This document shows positions 51,137 through 57,414 of a stretch of DNA of 64,000 bases, piece by piece. A program made the translations under genes and the position numbers. This DNA comes from an uncultured Elusimicrobia bacterium. Lineage in GTDB: Bacteria; Elusimicrobiota; Elusimicrobia; UBA1565; UBA9628. Location of the stretch: the NCBI GenBank assembly GCA_903830945.1, contig CAIKVT010000036.1, forward strand, positions 1 to 64,000. Reading direction: 5' to 3'. The notes beneath the pieces are model-generated. The model worked only from the letters and a program-made list of their open reading frames with translations. It did not search any database and was not told the DNA's origin. Within the stretch, counting starts at the first letter, position 1. Every line of letters begins with the position of its first letter.

Positions 51137-52372
51137 ATGGGTAGGAAGAAATCTATCTCTTGCGGGATGGGCGCCGTCGCTTTTCTCCTGATCGGCGCGC
51201 TTTGCAGCGAGGCGTGGTCGGAAAGCATGACCTTGACCACCTACTATCCTTCACCGACGGGGAATTACAAAAGAATCCGGCTGAGTCCCTATGCTAATCA
51301 GGCATCCATGCCTCAAGGCGTTCCGGCCGGGACCTTGGCTTATTGCTGCACCGCTGATAAAGATGGGAATAACCAGCCTGTAACAACATATAGCTTGTTT
51401 CTTAGCGTGCCGTCGGGCAGTTCGACAATATGGGTTCCCGTCGGCAGCACTTCCGACGCGGATATCATAAATGCCACCCTGGCTCAGGTGCCGAACTCCA
51501 TTTCTCTTAAAACATATTCTCGGATTTATGGGTCAGGGCAATGGGTGTTGCCTTGGGCCATCAGTAATAAAATAGGAATTATTCTCAACAAAACAGATAC
51601 GAGGTATGTTCAAGCCGCAAATCCATTGACCGCGACAGCTCTTTATCATGGGCAGATCACCGGTACCATATGCAATACGCCGCCGCCGATAGTGGTATCA
51701 AATGATGATCATGACCCTTCATCGGATATATTCTCTGGCGCGTCGCCGACGTCGTTTGCACATTCCCCATTGCTCCAGTTCTATTCCAACTACGGTGGCT
51801 ACCTCGCCACGCAAACTTCGTATGGCGGTGTATTTTCGTCCAGCAACCCGGATTCCGATTGCCCTTTTTACAGCAAATATTTCAACTCATCTGGAGGGCC
51901 TGGCGTTGTCTACTCATTTCATGCGTGTCGATCACAGCACTGGGTCGTGACCCATGGGGTAGGGGCTTGGACTGACACAGCAACTTATAAATATGCTCAG
52001 ACCAGTTGCTCGACGTTGAAACCATCAAGCACTCTTTATCGATTCGTGGAAATAGACCCCTACATAAGAGATGCGGGTAAAAAAACTGAGCAGAAATATC
52101 CTTATTGGTTAGCTTCCTATTATTCTTGTATCTGCAGCGACAATGTGCATCTTACTTTCGATTATTCGTATACGCGCACCTGGAAGCCTTATCTCGGGCT
52201 TCTGGCGACATTAGCTTACGCTGCAGGCAATAACAAACTGCTCCTACAAGCCTACTATAACATCATCTACACATCCGGGCAACCGTTGCCGCAGATCTAC
52301 CCGGGAGTGGCGAATTACACGACTTACGACACTTATTTCCTAAACAACCTGCAGCTGACGGTCGGTAGGTAA
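51137..52372 (+). CDS. Exported YYPxP-head protein, large variable domain
   Basis: The 411-residue protein starts at ATG 51137. A signal peptide (MGAVAFLLIGALCSEAWS) is followed by ESMTLTTYYPSPTGNYKRIRLSPY, the head motif that also opens the proteins at 55738 and 56566. The remaining 360 residues are Tyr/Ser/Thr-rich with many cysteines (TICNTPPP, CPFYSKYF, SFHACRSQHW, YYSCICSD) and look like an extracellular beta-rich domain with disulfides. The gene is clearly AT-richer than its neighbours. No known family is recognised beyond the head. Confidence 0.65.
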   Translation: MGRKKSISCGMGAVAFLLIGALCSEAWSESMTLTTYYPSPTGNYKRIRLSPYANQASMPQGVPAGTLAYCCTADKDGNNQPVTTYSLFLSVPSGSSTIWVPVGSTSDADIINATLAQVPNSISLKTYSRIYGSGQWVLPWAISNKIGIILNKTDTRYVQAANPLTATALYHGQITGTICNTPPPIVVSNDDHDPSSDIFSGASPTSFAHSPLLQFYSNYGGYLATQTSYGGVFSSSNPDSDCPFYSKYFNSSGGPGVVYSFHACRSQHWVVTHGVGAWTDTATYKYAQTSCSTLKPSSTLYRFVEIDPYIRDAGKKTEQKYPYWLASYYSCICSDNVHLTFDYSYTRTWKPYLGLLATLAYAAGNNKLLLQAYYNIIYTSGQPLPQIYPGVANYTTYDTYFLNNLQLTVGR

Positions 52373-53787: not shown

Positions 53788-54330
53788 ATGGGCCGGTTTA
53801 ATTACACTGTCCAAGACGGAAAAGGCGAGAAGACCTCCAGCAGTCTGGAGGCGGGCAGCGAGGGCGAGGCGATAGCCGCACTTCGGGGCCAGGGATATTT
53901 CATCCTCTCCATCGTCGCCGAACGCACCCCGTCTTCCGCCGCGGCCAAGGTGCAGGAGGCCGGTCAGGGCCGTGGATGGTTCTGGCTGTTGGCGTTGGCC
54001 CTCCCAGTCCTGACTTTCATTCTGCTGGGCCGCGGTCAGCCGGGCTCTAAGCCCGCGCCGTTGCTGACCAGCCAGTCCCCCACGTTTGTAGAACAGGCCG
54101 CGCCCCTTTTCCTGCCGGTCAGACTTTCCCGGGATGAGGCGCAGAGACTGCGCAGTTCGGCCGGGTTCATGGTGGATGGAGGCGGGCTGCAGATAATCCT
54201 TCCCGCGGACGGGATGAGCCTGAAAGCGGAGGCGCGCTTCTCGTACGATCCGAAGCTTCGGCAACTGCGGCCGATCAACGAGTCCGCTCGCGGGTTGCTG
54301 GACATCCGCCGGGGGTATCCCAAGCTATGA
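53788..54330 (+). CDS. Membrane protein with GspF/PilC N-terminal-like domain
   Basis: The 180-residue protein opens with FNYTVQDGKGEKTSSSLEAGSEGEAIAALRGQGYFILSIVAE, which looks like the first 50 residues of type II secretion/type IV pilus GspF/PilC proteins. Instead of the T2SF helices there is one transmembrane segment (WFWLLALALPVLTFILLG) and a small exported domain (LPVRLSRDEAQRLRSSAGFMVDGGGLQIIL). It overlaps the first pseudopilin gene as ATGA. It is probably an accessory assembly factor of a pseudopilus. Confidence 0.6.
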   Translation: MGRFNYTVQDGKGEKTSSSLEAGSEGEAIAALRGQGYFILSIVAERTPSSAAAKVQEAGQGRGWFWLLALALPVLTFILLGRGQPGSKPAPLLTSQSPTFVEQAAPLFLPVRLSRDEAQRLRSSAGFMVDGGGLQIILPADGMSLKAEARFSYDPKLRQLRPINESARGLLDIRRGYPKL

Positions 54331-54782
54331 GGAGCGCGGCCATCGGTGGCGTCTGCCGGCGACGTGGGGCGGCTTTGGTGGAGATCATCATCAGTCTATT
54401 GTTGATCGGCGTTGCGGTCTCCGCTATCATGAGCGCCATGCTTTCGACTTCAGTCCAGTCCACTCAGAGCAAGGGCCGGGAGCGGACCGCCTTGTGCCTC
54501 AATCAACTGCTTCAGGAACTGAGGAACTACGTGACCGCGGAGACTTCTTCAAGCCCGGATGCGCCGGGCGGCGCGGGCGCCTCTGGGTGGAAGCTTCCGA
54601 AAGACACCTGTAGCGGCCTCGGCGCTAATTGTTGGGCGCTCGCTGTGGGGAGTCACAATCTCGACTTGACGCAGGCTCGTGCCGTGTGCGGGCAGAATTT
54701 AGACGCGATGAAATACGACGTGACGGCCGGGCCGAACGGCACCTTCCAGGTGGCCGCCACGGTTACATGGACTCCTGAATGA
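54327..54782 (+). CDS. Pseudopilin-like protein (GspI/V type)
   Basis: The 151-residue protein has a short basic leader and the class III signal sequence RRGAALVEIIISLLLIGVAVSAIM with Glu at position +5 after the presumed cleavage site. The C-terminal region is hydrophilic with four cysteines. The first residue after the cleavage site is Ala, not Phe, so processing may follow Gly-Ala. It lies between ATGA overlaps on both sides, so that it is translationally coupled to both neighbours. Confidence 0.78.
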   Translation: MRSAAIGGVCRRRGAALVEIIISLLLIGVAVSAIMSAMLSTSVQSTQSKGRERTALCLNQLLQELRNYVTAETSSSPDAPGGAGASGWKLPKDTCSGLGANCWALAVGSHNLDLTQARAVCGQNLDAMKYDVTAGPNGTFQVAATVTWTPE

Positions 54783-55378
54783 TGTCCTGCTCTCGTCAGC
54801 CGGGCTTTACCCTCATAGAACTGCTCGTGGCCGTCGCCCTGTTCGGCGCGATGGTGGTCGGGTTGTCCGCCTTCTACGGCATGGTCTTCGGCGATCAATA
54901 CCGTAAATTCGCTGACTTGGCGGTGGCCAACGGCACGACCTCGGTGAGGCGGGCCTTCGATTCGGCCGTGGGTTCCGCTACGTATATTCAGGCCCCTCTT
55001 GTCGGCAATGTGGGAAACTACCTCACGGTCTGGACCAACCTTGATACCGACGGTGCCACGGCTTTGGTGACTGGGGTGACGCCTCAGTTCAGCCATCTCT
55101 GTTGCACCCCCGATGTCCGCTGCACGACAATATATCTATACCAAGGCACAGGCTCGGCAAACGTCCCCAGTGCTTGCGGCGCAAATCCCGCTTCCGGCGT
55201 GACGCGTATGTTGTTGGTCGGTGGGTCGGGATTCAGTGACACCAGTCTCGCGTTCAACCGGCTGGAACCCAACTTGGTTCAGATGACGAGCGGAATCACT
55301 CTGACCGATACGCGGATGTTAGAGCATTCGGCCTTCGTGGAGACGCAAGCGGTGGTGAGCGCCAATGACCAGAATTGA
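54779..55378 (+). CDS. Pseudopilin-like protein (GspJ/PilW type)
   Basis: The 199-residue protein has the classical prepilin peptidase site PGFTLIELLVAVALFGAMVVGLSAFYG with cleavage after Gly and Glu+5. The soluble domain holds several cysteines (HLCCTPDVRC). Length and order fit a GspJ/PilW minor pilin. It overlaps the preceding gene as ATGA and the following one by 14 bases. Confidence 0.85.
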   Translation: MMSCSRQPGFTLIELLVAVALFGAMVVGLSAFYGMVFGDQYRKFADLAVANGTTSVRRAFDSAVGSATYIQAPLVGNVGNYLTVWTNLDTDGATALVTGVTPQFSHLCCTPDVRCTTIYLYQGTGSANVPSACGANPASGVTRMLLVGGSGFSDTSLAFNRLEPNLVQMTSGITLTDTRMLEHSAFVETQAVVSANDQN

Positions 55379-55718
55379 ATGCCGGTTCCTACGGGGACGC
55401 CGCCGCGGCGTTTTTCTATTGCAGGCCATGGTCCTGGTCATGATTCTGGCTATTGTGGCTGCCGGCATGCTGTGGCTGAGCTTTGGCCGGCATGTCCTGC
55501 TCAGCCGGGCCAATGCGTCGGAATCCAATCAGCAACTGGCGGCAGGCGTTCAGAGCCAGGTCCTGGCTTGTCTAGATCTAAATGCGACGACTTACGGTAC
55601 ATCGGATTGCACGGTGCCTAACGCCTGTTTAGTCACATCCATCGCGGGCGTGAACGTGACAGTCTCTTCCGTTGGCAGCGCGCCGAACTGCCAGCTGACC
55701 TTCACCGTCAGCGATTAA
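55365..55718 (+). CDS. PilX/GspK-like minor pilin
   Basis: The 117-residue protein begins with a basic leader and one long hydrophobic helix (RRRGVFLLQAMVLVMILAIVAAGMLWLSFG), as in PilX/GspK-type minor pilins that lack the canonical Glu+5. A short, Cys-containing exported domain follows (VLACLDLNATTYGTSDCTVPNACLV). It is translationally coupled to the GspJ-like gene, so that the three could form a tip complex. Confidence 0.65.
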   Translation: MTRIECRFLRGRRRGVFLLQAMVLVMILAIVAAGMLWLSFGRHVLLSRANASESNQQLAAGVQSQVLACLDLNATTYGTSDCTVPNACLVTSIAGVNVTVSSVGSAPNCQLTFTVSD

Positions 55719-55737: not shown

Positions 55738-55893
55738 ATGGATGAGCGTGAGATCACCATCCATGTCAAGGTCTCGCGCCGGGCGTTCATCTGGGCGGCG
55801 GCGGCCCTGCTCATGTGCTGCAGCGCCAATGAGGTGGTCTCCGAGAGCCTGACCATGACCACGTATTACCCGGCGCCGTCGGGTGTTTACAAG
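55738..55893 (+). repeat. Gene-head repeat, copy 1
   Basis: The first 156 bases of this gene match 56566-56721 at close to nine of ten positions, far more than the rest of the two genes. It covers the charged N-terminus, hydrophobic segment and YYPAPSGVYKR motif. Confidence 0.75.
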
Positions 55894-56520
55894 CGGCTGA
55901 CCGCGACCGAGGGGGTCGCTGTCGGAACGTATAAGGCCAGCGCAGCGCCTGCTGGCGACCTGATCGTGAGCGGCAGCGTAGGCATCGGGACGACTTCACC
56001 AGCCAATAAGCTTTCCGTCGCAGGGAATGCCGACGTCTCCGGCAACATTGCCGTCGGCGGGCTGATGATGGCGGGGCAACATGCGAGCGCGCAAGAAAGC
56101 GCTCTCTCGAAAGTGGAGGGCGCTTTCTATTACGCTACGGACCTCCATCAATTCCGGGGCTTCCAGAACGGGGCCTGGCAGACGATCGGAGGCGGCGGAG
56201 GTGGAGCGGTTGCTTTTGCCACAAACACCGTGACGGGCGCCTTTAACATCGCGGCTGCCGGCAATTACATAGTCATGGGAAAAGCCTGGGTTCAGTGGGG
56301 GGATAACAACGGCTTGCAGTCCCTGTCCATAGACGGAGCGACGGTGGATTCTAATTCAAACGGAGATTATGTCGGCTCAGGCGGGACTGGTGGAGCTCCG
56401 GATGAAGCGTTCTTCCTGGCTAAAGTGCACCTTACAGTCGGTAACCACACGTTCGCGATGACCTGCGCCGGCGGCCGTGTGGAGAAGAACCCAGCTTTCG
56501 CGGTTTTCCCGTTCCTCTAA
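55738..56520 (+). CDS. YYPxP-head exported protein, tail-fibre-like
   Basis: The 260-residue protein has a 14-residue charged N-terminus (MDEREITIHVKVSR), a hydrophobic segment ending in MCCSANEVVS, and the head ESLTMTTYYPAPSGVYKRL. The body contains GSVGIGTTSPANKLSVAGNADVSG, a repeat typical of phage tail fibres and adhesins. A poly-Gly linker and a C-terminal beta domain (AFFLAKVHLTVGNHTFAMTCAGG) follow. GAGGA lies 8 bases before the ATG. Its first 156 bases are nearly duplicated at 56566. Confidence 0.68.
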   Translation: MDEREITIHVKVSRRAFIWAAAALLMCCSANEVVSESLTMTTYYPAPSGVYKRLTATEGVAVGTYKASAAPAGDLIVSGSVGIGTTSPANKLSVAGNADVSGNIAVGGLMMAGQHASAQESALSKVEGAFYYATDLHQFRGFQNGAWQTIGGGGGGAVAFATNTVTGAFNIAAAGNYIVMGKAWVQWGDNNGLQSLSIDGATVDSNSNGDYVGSGGTGGAPDEAFFLAKVHLTVGNHTFAMTCAGGRVEKNPAFAVFPFL

Positions 56521-56565
56521 TGAGCGCCTCTGGATTTTTCGGGATGATAGCGAGGCGGATCGATC

Positions 56566-56721
56566 ATGAATGACCGTGAGATCACCATCCATGTCAAGGT
56601 CTCGCGCCGGTCGTTCATCTGGGCGGCGGCGGCCATGCTCATGTGCTGCAGCGCTAACGAGGTCGTTTCCGAGAGTATGACTATGACCACGTATTACCCG
56701 GCGCCGTCGGGCGTCTATAAA
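56566..56721 (+). repeat. Gene-head repeat, copy 2
   Basis: Second copy of the head of the gene at 55738. Most differences are third-base changes, and the downstream sequences are unrelated. Confidence 0.75.
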
Positions 56722-57414
56722 AGGATGACAACAACGGGCAACACCCATCTTGCCCGCGATAACGGCGGGACGGTATACATAGGTGAGAACCAAAGCCCCG
56801 CCGGCACGCCGCTCATTGTAAACGGCGACATGCATGTCGGGTTACAGAGCGGGGCCACCATCCACGCCACGGGCGCGATCCAGCCTGGGGATGATCAAAC
56901 CTTGGTATGCGCCGCGGGCTCTCAGGGCGCGATCCGGTGGAATAAAACTTCCCAAGCGTTGGAGGTATGTAACGGTGTCGGCAATTGGCAAACGGTAGGG
57001 GGGATAACGGGAGTGACCTGTCCAACCGACTGGGGGTGCTCTGTCGGCGGCTCCAATATCGTTATTAGTCCACCCTCTAATGTCATCGGGGCGGTGAATA
57101 ATATCAGCGGTGATACGATATCTCAAAATCCTCAGACTTTTAAGATTATTTACAATCATGTCATCCCCTCTCCGATATACCTGTGCCCGGCAGTACCCAA
57201 CATATACGCTGGGGTGGCCTGCAACTTTTACTCAAACTGCCCATACGGGGTTCCCGGTCCGTCGAGTAGCTGCGTCGGTCAGAATGGAGCTAGTGCCACT
57301 TGTATGTATTACCGTTTCCAGATGACCTCATGTTGGCAGTGGTGCCATTCTCCTACTTTACTGGGGTACACGGGTCCTGTCGCCACAACTCTGTACTGCA
57401 CTCAAATCAATTAG
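56566..57414 (+). CDS. YYPxP-head exported protein with Cys-rich variable domain
   Basis: The 282-residue paralogue of the preceding gene shares MxDREITIHVKVSRRxFIWAAAAxLMCCSANEVVSES and TMTTYYPAPSGVYKR. The tail is different: ALEVCNGVGNWQTVGG, CPTDWGCSVGG, then a Cys-rich section (YLCPAVPNIYAGVACNFYSNCPYG). The 3' half is AT-richer than the head. This combination of a conserved head with unrelated tails suggests domain exchange. Role probably at the cell surface; unproven. Confidence 0.65.
   Translation: MNDREITIHVKVSRRSFIWAAAAMLMCCSANEVVSESMTMTTYYPAPSGVYKRMTTTGNTHLARDNGGTVYIGENQSPAGTPLIVNGDMHVGLQSGATIHATGAIQPGDDQTLVCAAGSQGAIRWNKTSQALEVCNGVGNWQTVGGITGVTCPTDWGCSVGGSNIVISPPSNVIGAVNNISGDTISQNPQTFKIIYNHVIPSPIYLCPAVPNIYAGVACNFYSNCPYGVPGPSSSCVGQNGASATCMYYRFQMTSCWQWCHSPTLLGYTGPVATTLYCTQIN

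Follow-up and report, generated by a model that had tools for sequence, protein, structure and literature searches.

What a short and nearly identical protein start is doing at the front of two adjacent genes whose remaining parts appear unrelated, directly downstream of a set of pseudopilin genes, is the question that this locus raises. The window, a 64,000-nucleotide stretch of DNA from a 3.24 Mb Elusimicrobiota metagenome-assembled genome (MAG; G000), contains the following features, with signal peptides assigned by eye; all data used here are MAG sequences.

51137 to 52372, + strand: third YYP protein, 411 aa, with a different predicted signal peptide, mature start ESMTLTTYYPSPTGNYKR and an unrelated tail
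53788 to 54330, + strand: first gene of the pseudopilin operon, with a GspF-N-like domain (TIGR02120, E 0.0011, residues 4-52, below cut-off), a transmembrane segment and a periplasmic part
54327 to 54782, + strand: PilV/GspI-like minor pseudopilin, weak family match
54779 to 55378, + strand: PilW/GspJ-like minor pseudopilin, N_methyl above cut-off
55365 to 55718, + strand: PilX/GspK-like minor pseudopilin, weak match, Gln replacing Glu5 as in tip-capping types
55738 to 56520, + strand: YYP-head fibre protein 1, 260 aa, head plus GIGTTSP shaft plus unique tail
55738 to 55908, + strand: shared head of protein 1; its predicted signal peptide has the n-region REITIHVKVSRR, and the mature part reads ESLTMTTYYPAPSGVYKR
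55909 to 56193, + strand: shaft-like stretch of protein 1 (GIGTTSPANKLSVAG, AFYYATDLHQFRGFQNGAWQTIGG), in part related to copies elsewhere in the genome and to the shafts of mosaic adhesive trimer (MAT) fibres
56194 to 56517, + strand: unique tail of protein 1, with no family, PDB or Elusimicrobiota relative
56566 to 57414, + strand: YYP-head fibre protein 2, 282 aa, near-identical head and unrelated Cys-rich tail
56566 to 56736, + strand: shared head of protein 2, 88% nucleotide identity with 55738-55908

The earlier note had described the genes at 55738 and 56566 as having near-identical starts and unrelated tails, and this is borne out. Both are real open frames at the coordinates it gave (55738-56520 and 56566-57414), and their first 57 codons agree at 88% of nucleotides and at 50 of 57 amino acids, which defines a shared head of about 170 bp. 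Blocks of 30 nt agree at 83-97% of positions between approximately the ATG and a point some 30 nt past the TYYP codons; beyond YKR-[LM]-T (YKRLTAT) the identity drops at once to a background of 17-47%, and upstream of the ATG it is likewise at background; alignment of the tails does not rise above that of shuffled sequence (z=1.3). In the head an unusual, conserved n-region (REITIHVKVSRR) leads into a hydrophobic stretch, after which the mature part starts with ESxTMTTYYPAPSGVYKR. The gene at 51137-52372 was correctly said to share only the motif, its head having 48% nucleotide identity, a signal peptide of its own and only the mature start in common. Searches of the window tails against Pfam, PHROGs and PDB gave nothing usable and no recognisable adhesive domain, and the 55738 tail is without relatives in IMG/VR or, at E 1e-3, in 295 Elusimicrobiota genomes. 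A single-sequence AlphaFold model of the 55738 protein was uninformative (pLDDT 31), and its tail has, by eye only, a TNF/C1q-like look that the Pfam and PDB searches did not confirm.

Searching the whole genome for further heads, as the earlier note had proposed, recovered 13 head genes, ten beyond the three in the window and most of them far from pilin genes; one copy is truncated where its contig ends, and two of the copy-bearing contigs (C19 and C76) are short. The coding head is almost identical in the two adjacent window genes and in these ten further copies. Relatives in the same family carry 1-6 copies per genome, in 41 of 44 genomes, so that the window genome is a clear outlier. The head is present in 86 of 295 genomes of the phylum sample, and the motif also occurs in Omnitrophota. 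Among 47 aligned proteins the sole invariant columns are E36, T39, T41, T42, Y43, Y44, P45, P47, G49 and Y51, all within the mature N-terminus, for which the family pattern is E-x-[LM]-T-[LM]-TTYYP-x-P-x-G-x-Y. Nothing points to a viral source of the head, since no YYP head was confirmed in IMG/VR with the patterns used. The string TTYYPAP was not found in the literature searched, and nothing relevant on pseudopilins or adhesins of Elusimicrobia was found there. Export by the Tat route, suggested by SRRxF in the window-genome copies, was rejected because RR is not conserved: it is present in 12 of 13 heads of the window genome and in 33 of 89 others, and strict [ST]RRxF occurs in 5 of 102. The sole TatC gene of the window genome (L032:10380-11108, - strand) lies about 2 kb from the head gene on contig C60. 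One YYP-head protein from Omnitrophota (L125:2543-4204, + strand) has a Hint/intein-like C-terminal tail, with matches to PF14890 (1.3e-7, below the gathering score) and PF13403 (1e-4).

Behind the head, most family members carry GIGTTxPxxxLxVxG units, a beta-prism shaft of the MAT type, and after it a tail; the tails of the different copies in the window genome are for the most part unrelated to one another. A profile built from 47 members and compared with PDB by hmmsearch matched the Bdellovibrio MAT fibre Bd2133 (8ond, 2.3e-16) as well as 8ojn (2.4e-7), 8oml (1.4e-4) and 8ol4, the weakest match being 7e-3, and the family shaft is by this comparison homologous to the MAT fibres of Bdellovibrio bacteriovorus. 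An AF2 model of the relative L147, not of a window protein, reached pLDDT 75.8, and its top Foldseek hits were Bd2133 and phage tail fibres. VIA-align of about residues 67-149 of this model gave Z 5.5 for Bd2133 (8ond; 77 residues, rmsd 2.6 A), Z 6.1 for the Mu fibre (62 residues, 2.0 A) and Z 6.0 for T4 gp34 (88 residues, 3.0 A); with Z values as modest as these, homology with the MAT shaft is better supported by the sequence match. Tails of other family members match Gly_rich_2 and phage fibre PHROGs. A Gly-rich tip of the PF21722/phrog_2295 kind occurs in the window genome (L028:1492-2745) and, by eye, a similar one on an Omnitrophota head (L124:8103-9266). Contig C1 of the window genome also encodes a 771 aa protein (L036:7815-10130, - strand) in which the signal peptide precedes a long domain (GINYQGRL...) and then a series of GIGTTAP shaft repeats. 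It has no Pfam family, and by eye it looks like a second, more MAT-like class of fibre with the classical long N-domain.

Several observations bear on how the same head came to stand before different tails. At sites with the same residue, paralogue pairs within the window genome have a codon identity of 0.678, against 0.423 expected from its codon usage, and comparison of heads with those of other genomes gives 0.387, against 0.405 expected, with the sister genome G040 intermediate at 0.58. Because synonymous identity is high within the genome and saturated between genomes, the heads of the window genome share recent ancestry. One copy, L029, is a mosaic in which the n-region resembles one gene on contig C76 and the middle part resembles the other: at informative sites the middle segment follows one relative at 28 of 28 positions, and outside it 62 of 101 follow the other and 39 of 101 the first (permutation p ~0.001). 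The tails of the copies on C60 and C35 (L032 and L033) resemble tails from other genera more closely than they resemble any tail of the window genome; the head of L032, unlike its tail, is closest to window-genome heads. The syntenic slot in G040 holds one head between PilX and SMC that is 73% identical (z 26), followed by a tail that is not recognisably related (z 1.9-3.5), and its neighbours are 87% (PBP), 91% (MltA), 59-66% (pilins) and 76% (SMC) identical. The heads of the window genome have thus been copied recently among genes, and the tail at the syntenic slot was replaced while the head was kept. The copying could reflect gene conversion, or repeated duplication by which 5' ends were joined to new tails; data from one genome per species do not distinguish between the two. 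Outside this genus heads and tails co-evolve in the ordinary way, as in L102 and L132 (71% identity in the head and 56% in the tail), and tail exchange is therefore shown for the window's genus and not for the whole family; the homogenisation of heads and exchange of tails seen in the earlier note stands for that genus and not beyond it. Around the 13 head genes no shared flanks or mobile boundaries were found apart from a tandem pair and one inverted repeat of 100 bp. The latter, of about 100 bp and 78% identical, lies upstream of two unlinked heads (L027:7456 and L031:7891) and is possibly a small mobile element.

The pseudopilin genes were described in the earlier note as three pseudopilins and a GspF-N-like neighbour. 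The 54779 protein exceeds curated cut-offs (TIGR02532, 26.3 versus 16.3; PF07963, 31.1 versus 21.2); for those at 54327, 55365 and 53788 the assignments remain weak matches, with the order of all four genes conserved in sister genomes. Homologues of the 53788 protein are 63% identical over 97 aa in G040 and 52% over 121 aa in G038. This gene encodes a stand-alone GspF-N-like cytoplasmic domain, and its equivalent in G038 has, by eye, a different, GYF-like N-terminus. Four other genomes of the family (G040, G038, G042 and G023) have homologues of the PilW-like protein, each with a head gene within about 2 kb. The side varies: the head gene follows the pilin operon in the window genome (G000) and in G040, is found past the MltA side in G038, precedes the operon in G042 and is divergent in G023. 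The order pilin-pilin-head recurs at five loci of other genera (L082, L086, L096, L102 and L132). Two head loci of the window genome adjoin pilus or secretion genes, that of the window and one on C58, where a PilC/GspF gene follows 118 bp after the head, and the genome encodes three secretins and full T2SSF proteins. Across relatives, pilin neighbours were found at no fewer than 8 of 80 head loci by BLAST clusters, in a sample of at least 80 loci drawn by pattern search, and at 12 or more of 93 by a regex count; all counts of neighbours of head loci are lower bounds, given genome fragmentation, sampling and an ORF choice that hides overlapping genes in GC-rich DNA.

A different gene system is the more frequent neighbour. 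At no fewer than 35 of 80 loci HxsD follows the head at 0.8 kb, and at no fewer than 33 of them HxsB does so at 1.8 kb; HxsB and HxsA4 score over cut-off in Hxs-linked head loci, and HxS-repeat ORFs are present in more than 20 loci. HxsB was found in 28 of 44 family genomes, and in 17 of the 28 a head lies within 11 kb, for which simple uniform placement gives a chance of about 5e-18. In the window genome no HxsB is over the cut-off, the best match having E 1.1e-9, under the cut-off of 370 bits. At L147:7768-11213 an operon of HxsD, HxsB, an HxsD-like gene, a gene of about 340 aa and HxsA4 lies directly 3' of a YYP-head gene, an arrangement present in many Elusimicrobiota. The tails of Hxs-linked YYP proteins often terminate in G-x-M-x-C-C-[RK]. 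In the literature found, Hxs maturation is treated as putative (PMC9062424). The earlier note had taken the head for the export or attachment signal of the neighbouring machine. Such a role is reasonable, since the shared part consists of a predicted signal peptide and a conserved mature N-terminus; the head cannot be an address for the pseudopilin operon only, because pilin genes are a minority context (about 8 of 80 loci, against 33-35 of 80 for HxsB and HxsD).

We propose that the YYP proteins are probably MAT-like adhesive fibres that share a single anchor and whose tips have been exchanged. Each protein would be exported, most likely by Sec, and would form a trimeric fibre in which the free mature N-terminus is the docking element common to the family and fastens the fibre to a shared partner at the cell surface, leaving the C-terminal tip to bind variable targets. 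In the window's genus the best candidate for this partner would be the adjoining minor-pseudopilin tip complex (PilV/W/X-like or GspI/J/K-like), so that in both position and role the YYP proteins would be tip adhesins like PilY1; export via the pseudopilin tip, or docking on it, is a plausible possibility. In most other Elusimicrobiota the linked system is Hxs (HxsA4/B/D). With many tips sharing one head, a single anchoring site would be able to display a repertoire. A stronger version, which we put forward tentatively and would not expect to hold in full, is that TTYYPxPxGxY is an undescribed plug-in docking sequence that loads MAT-like fibres onto a shared surface machine in Elusimicrobiota and Omnitrophota, namely a minor-pseudopilin tip in some lineages and an Hxs-modified component in most, such that any tail fused to the head would be displayed and the adhesion repertoire would be built by copying the head onto new tips.

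The identity of the partner is the point on which the main alternatives turn. In a strict tip-adhesin model the YYP head would bind the PilV/W/X-like complex, a pilus or T2SS would carry the protein out, and the fibre would be the pilus tip in the role of PilY1. The order PilV-PilW-PilX-head resembles pilVWXY1, linkage of pilin and head is kept in every family genome where the operon was found even as the head changes side, the pilin-pilin-head order reaches other genera, and the secretins and T2SSF proteins are available in the window genome. Most head genes nonetheless have no pilin neighbours, and no PilY1 domain was found by Pfam in P0001-P0003, so that we regard the strict form as possible but doubtful. 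The Hxs radical-SAM system may alternatively have the head as its partner or its substrate, with the pilin-linked copies of the window's genus being secondary survivors after loss of Hxs. The frequency of HxsD and HxsB downstream of heads, the proximity of heads in HxsB genomes and the window genome's want of an HxsB over cut-off agree with this reading, which we consider unlikely all the same: the family persists in the window genome and in Omnitrophota with no link to Hxs, the tails carry no HxS repeat, and HxsB/C are thought to act on peptides of the HxsA type. The pseudopilin and Hxs readings are not exclusive, because lineages may differ.

The remaining alternatives concern the history of the genes. 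Ordinary paralogous expansion, with a constrained signal peptide and N-terminus, fast-diverging tails and no recombination, would account for the ancient conservation of the motif at the protein level. It is hard to reconcile with synonymous identity that is well above saturation within the genome and at saturation between genomes, with head identity that falls from 90% to background within one block, with the mosaic copy L029, or with L032 and L033 tails that are closer to other genera than to their neighbours, and we judge it improbable. A diversity-generating retroelement (DGR) or phase-variable cassette system would likewise place constant and variable parts in one multigene family, and the earlier note had invoked diversity-generating systems. 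As a DGR the locus is unlikely because no reverse transcriptase was detected in the window genome, where no RVT_1 match was obtained in a search that detected its controls; tails are moreover replaced whole and not by adenine-directed changes, and the genes are complete, intact ORFs and not silent cassettes. We give this explanation very little weight.

The proposed MAT-like fibres with a common anchor would offer a natural case of head homogenisation and tip replacement in a cellular, non-viral fibre family. Because the MAT-type shafts of this family begin with a mature N-terminus that is short, invariant and tied to two gene systems, questions about the MAT anchor and about Hxs also become testable.

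The closest of the known systems are the MAT fibres, which are trimeric, displayed on the surface and built from a constant N-terminal domain with exchanged tips, with an anchor partner described as unknown and type IV pili suggested as a possibility (PMC10769870). Like them, the YYP proteins form a multigene family with a signal peptide, a conserved surface-proximal end, a GIGTTxP beta-prism shaft, unrelated C-terminal tips and relatives among phage fibres, and variable C-terminal tips on a constant N-terminus are found here too. The beta-rich N-domain of about 130 aa that follows the signal peptide in MAT fibres was not found; the conserved part ends about 20-25 residues into the mature YYP protein and is followed by shaft or tail. 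The YYP proteins are therefore MAT-like and not MAT members, because this anchor of about 20-25 residues replaces the N-domain of about 130 aa. They are also mostly 200-420 aa long, whereas MAT fibres are typically about 1,000 aa, the scanned members have no S74 domain, and their genes are linked to Hxs or pseudopilin genes. With phage tail fibres and receptor-binding proteins (T4 gp34, Mu, T5) they share a trimeric-fibre-like shaft, a constant N-terminus and exchanged tips, but the YYP genes are cellular, encode a signal peptide and have no recognised phage genes nearby. The His-Xaa-Ser (Hxs) radical-SAM system (TIGR03976-TIGR03978, NF038313) recurs in Elusimicrobiota as an operon neighbour of the family, although the YYP proteins are not HxS-repeat peptides and the window genome is without HxsB over cut-off. 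PilY1, described as belonging to the minor-pilin tip complex (PMC7541494, PMC8833165), is encoded in a minor-pilin operon (pilV-W-X-Y1), and here likewise a non-pilin adhesin candidate is encoded directly after three minor pilins. Proximity to PilV/W/X holds for the window genes and not for most head copies. The YYP proteins differ from PilY1 further in lacking its C-terminal domain (no Pfam family in P0001, P0002 and P0003 at E<=1), in having a short fibre instead, and in the many copies that lie outside the operon.
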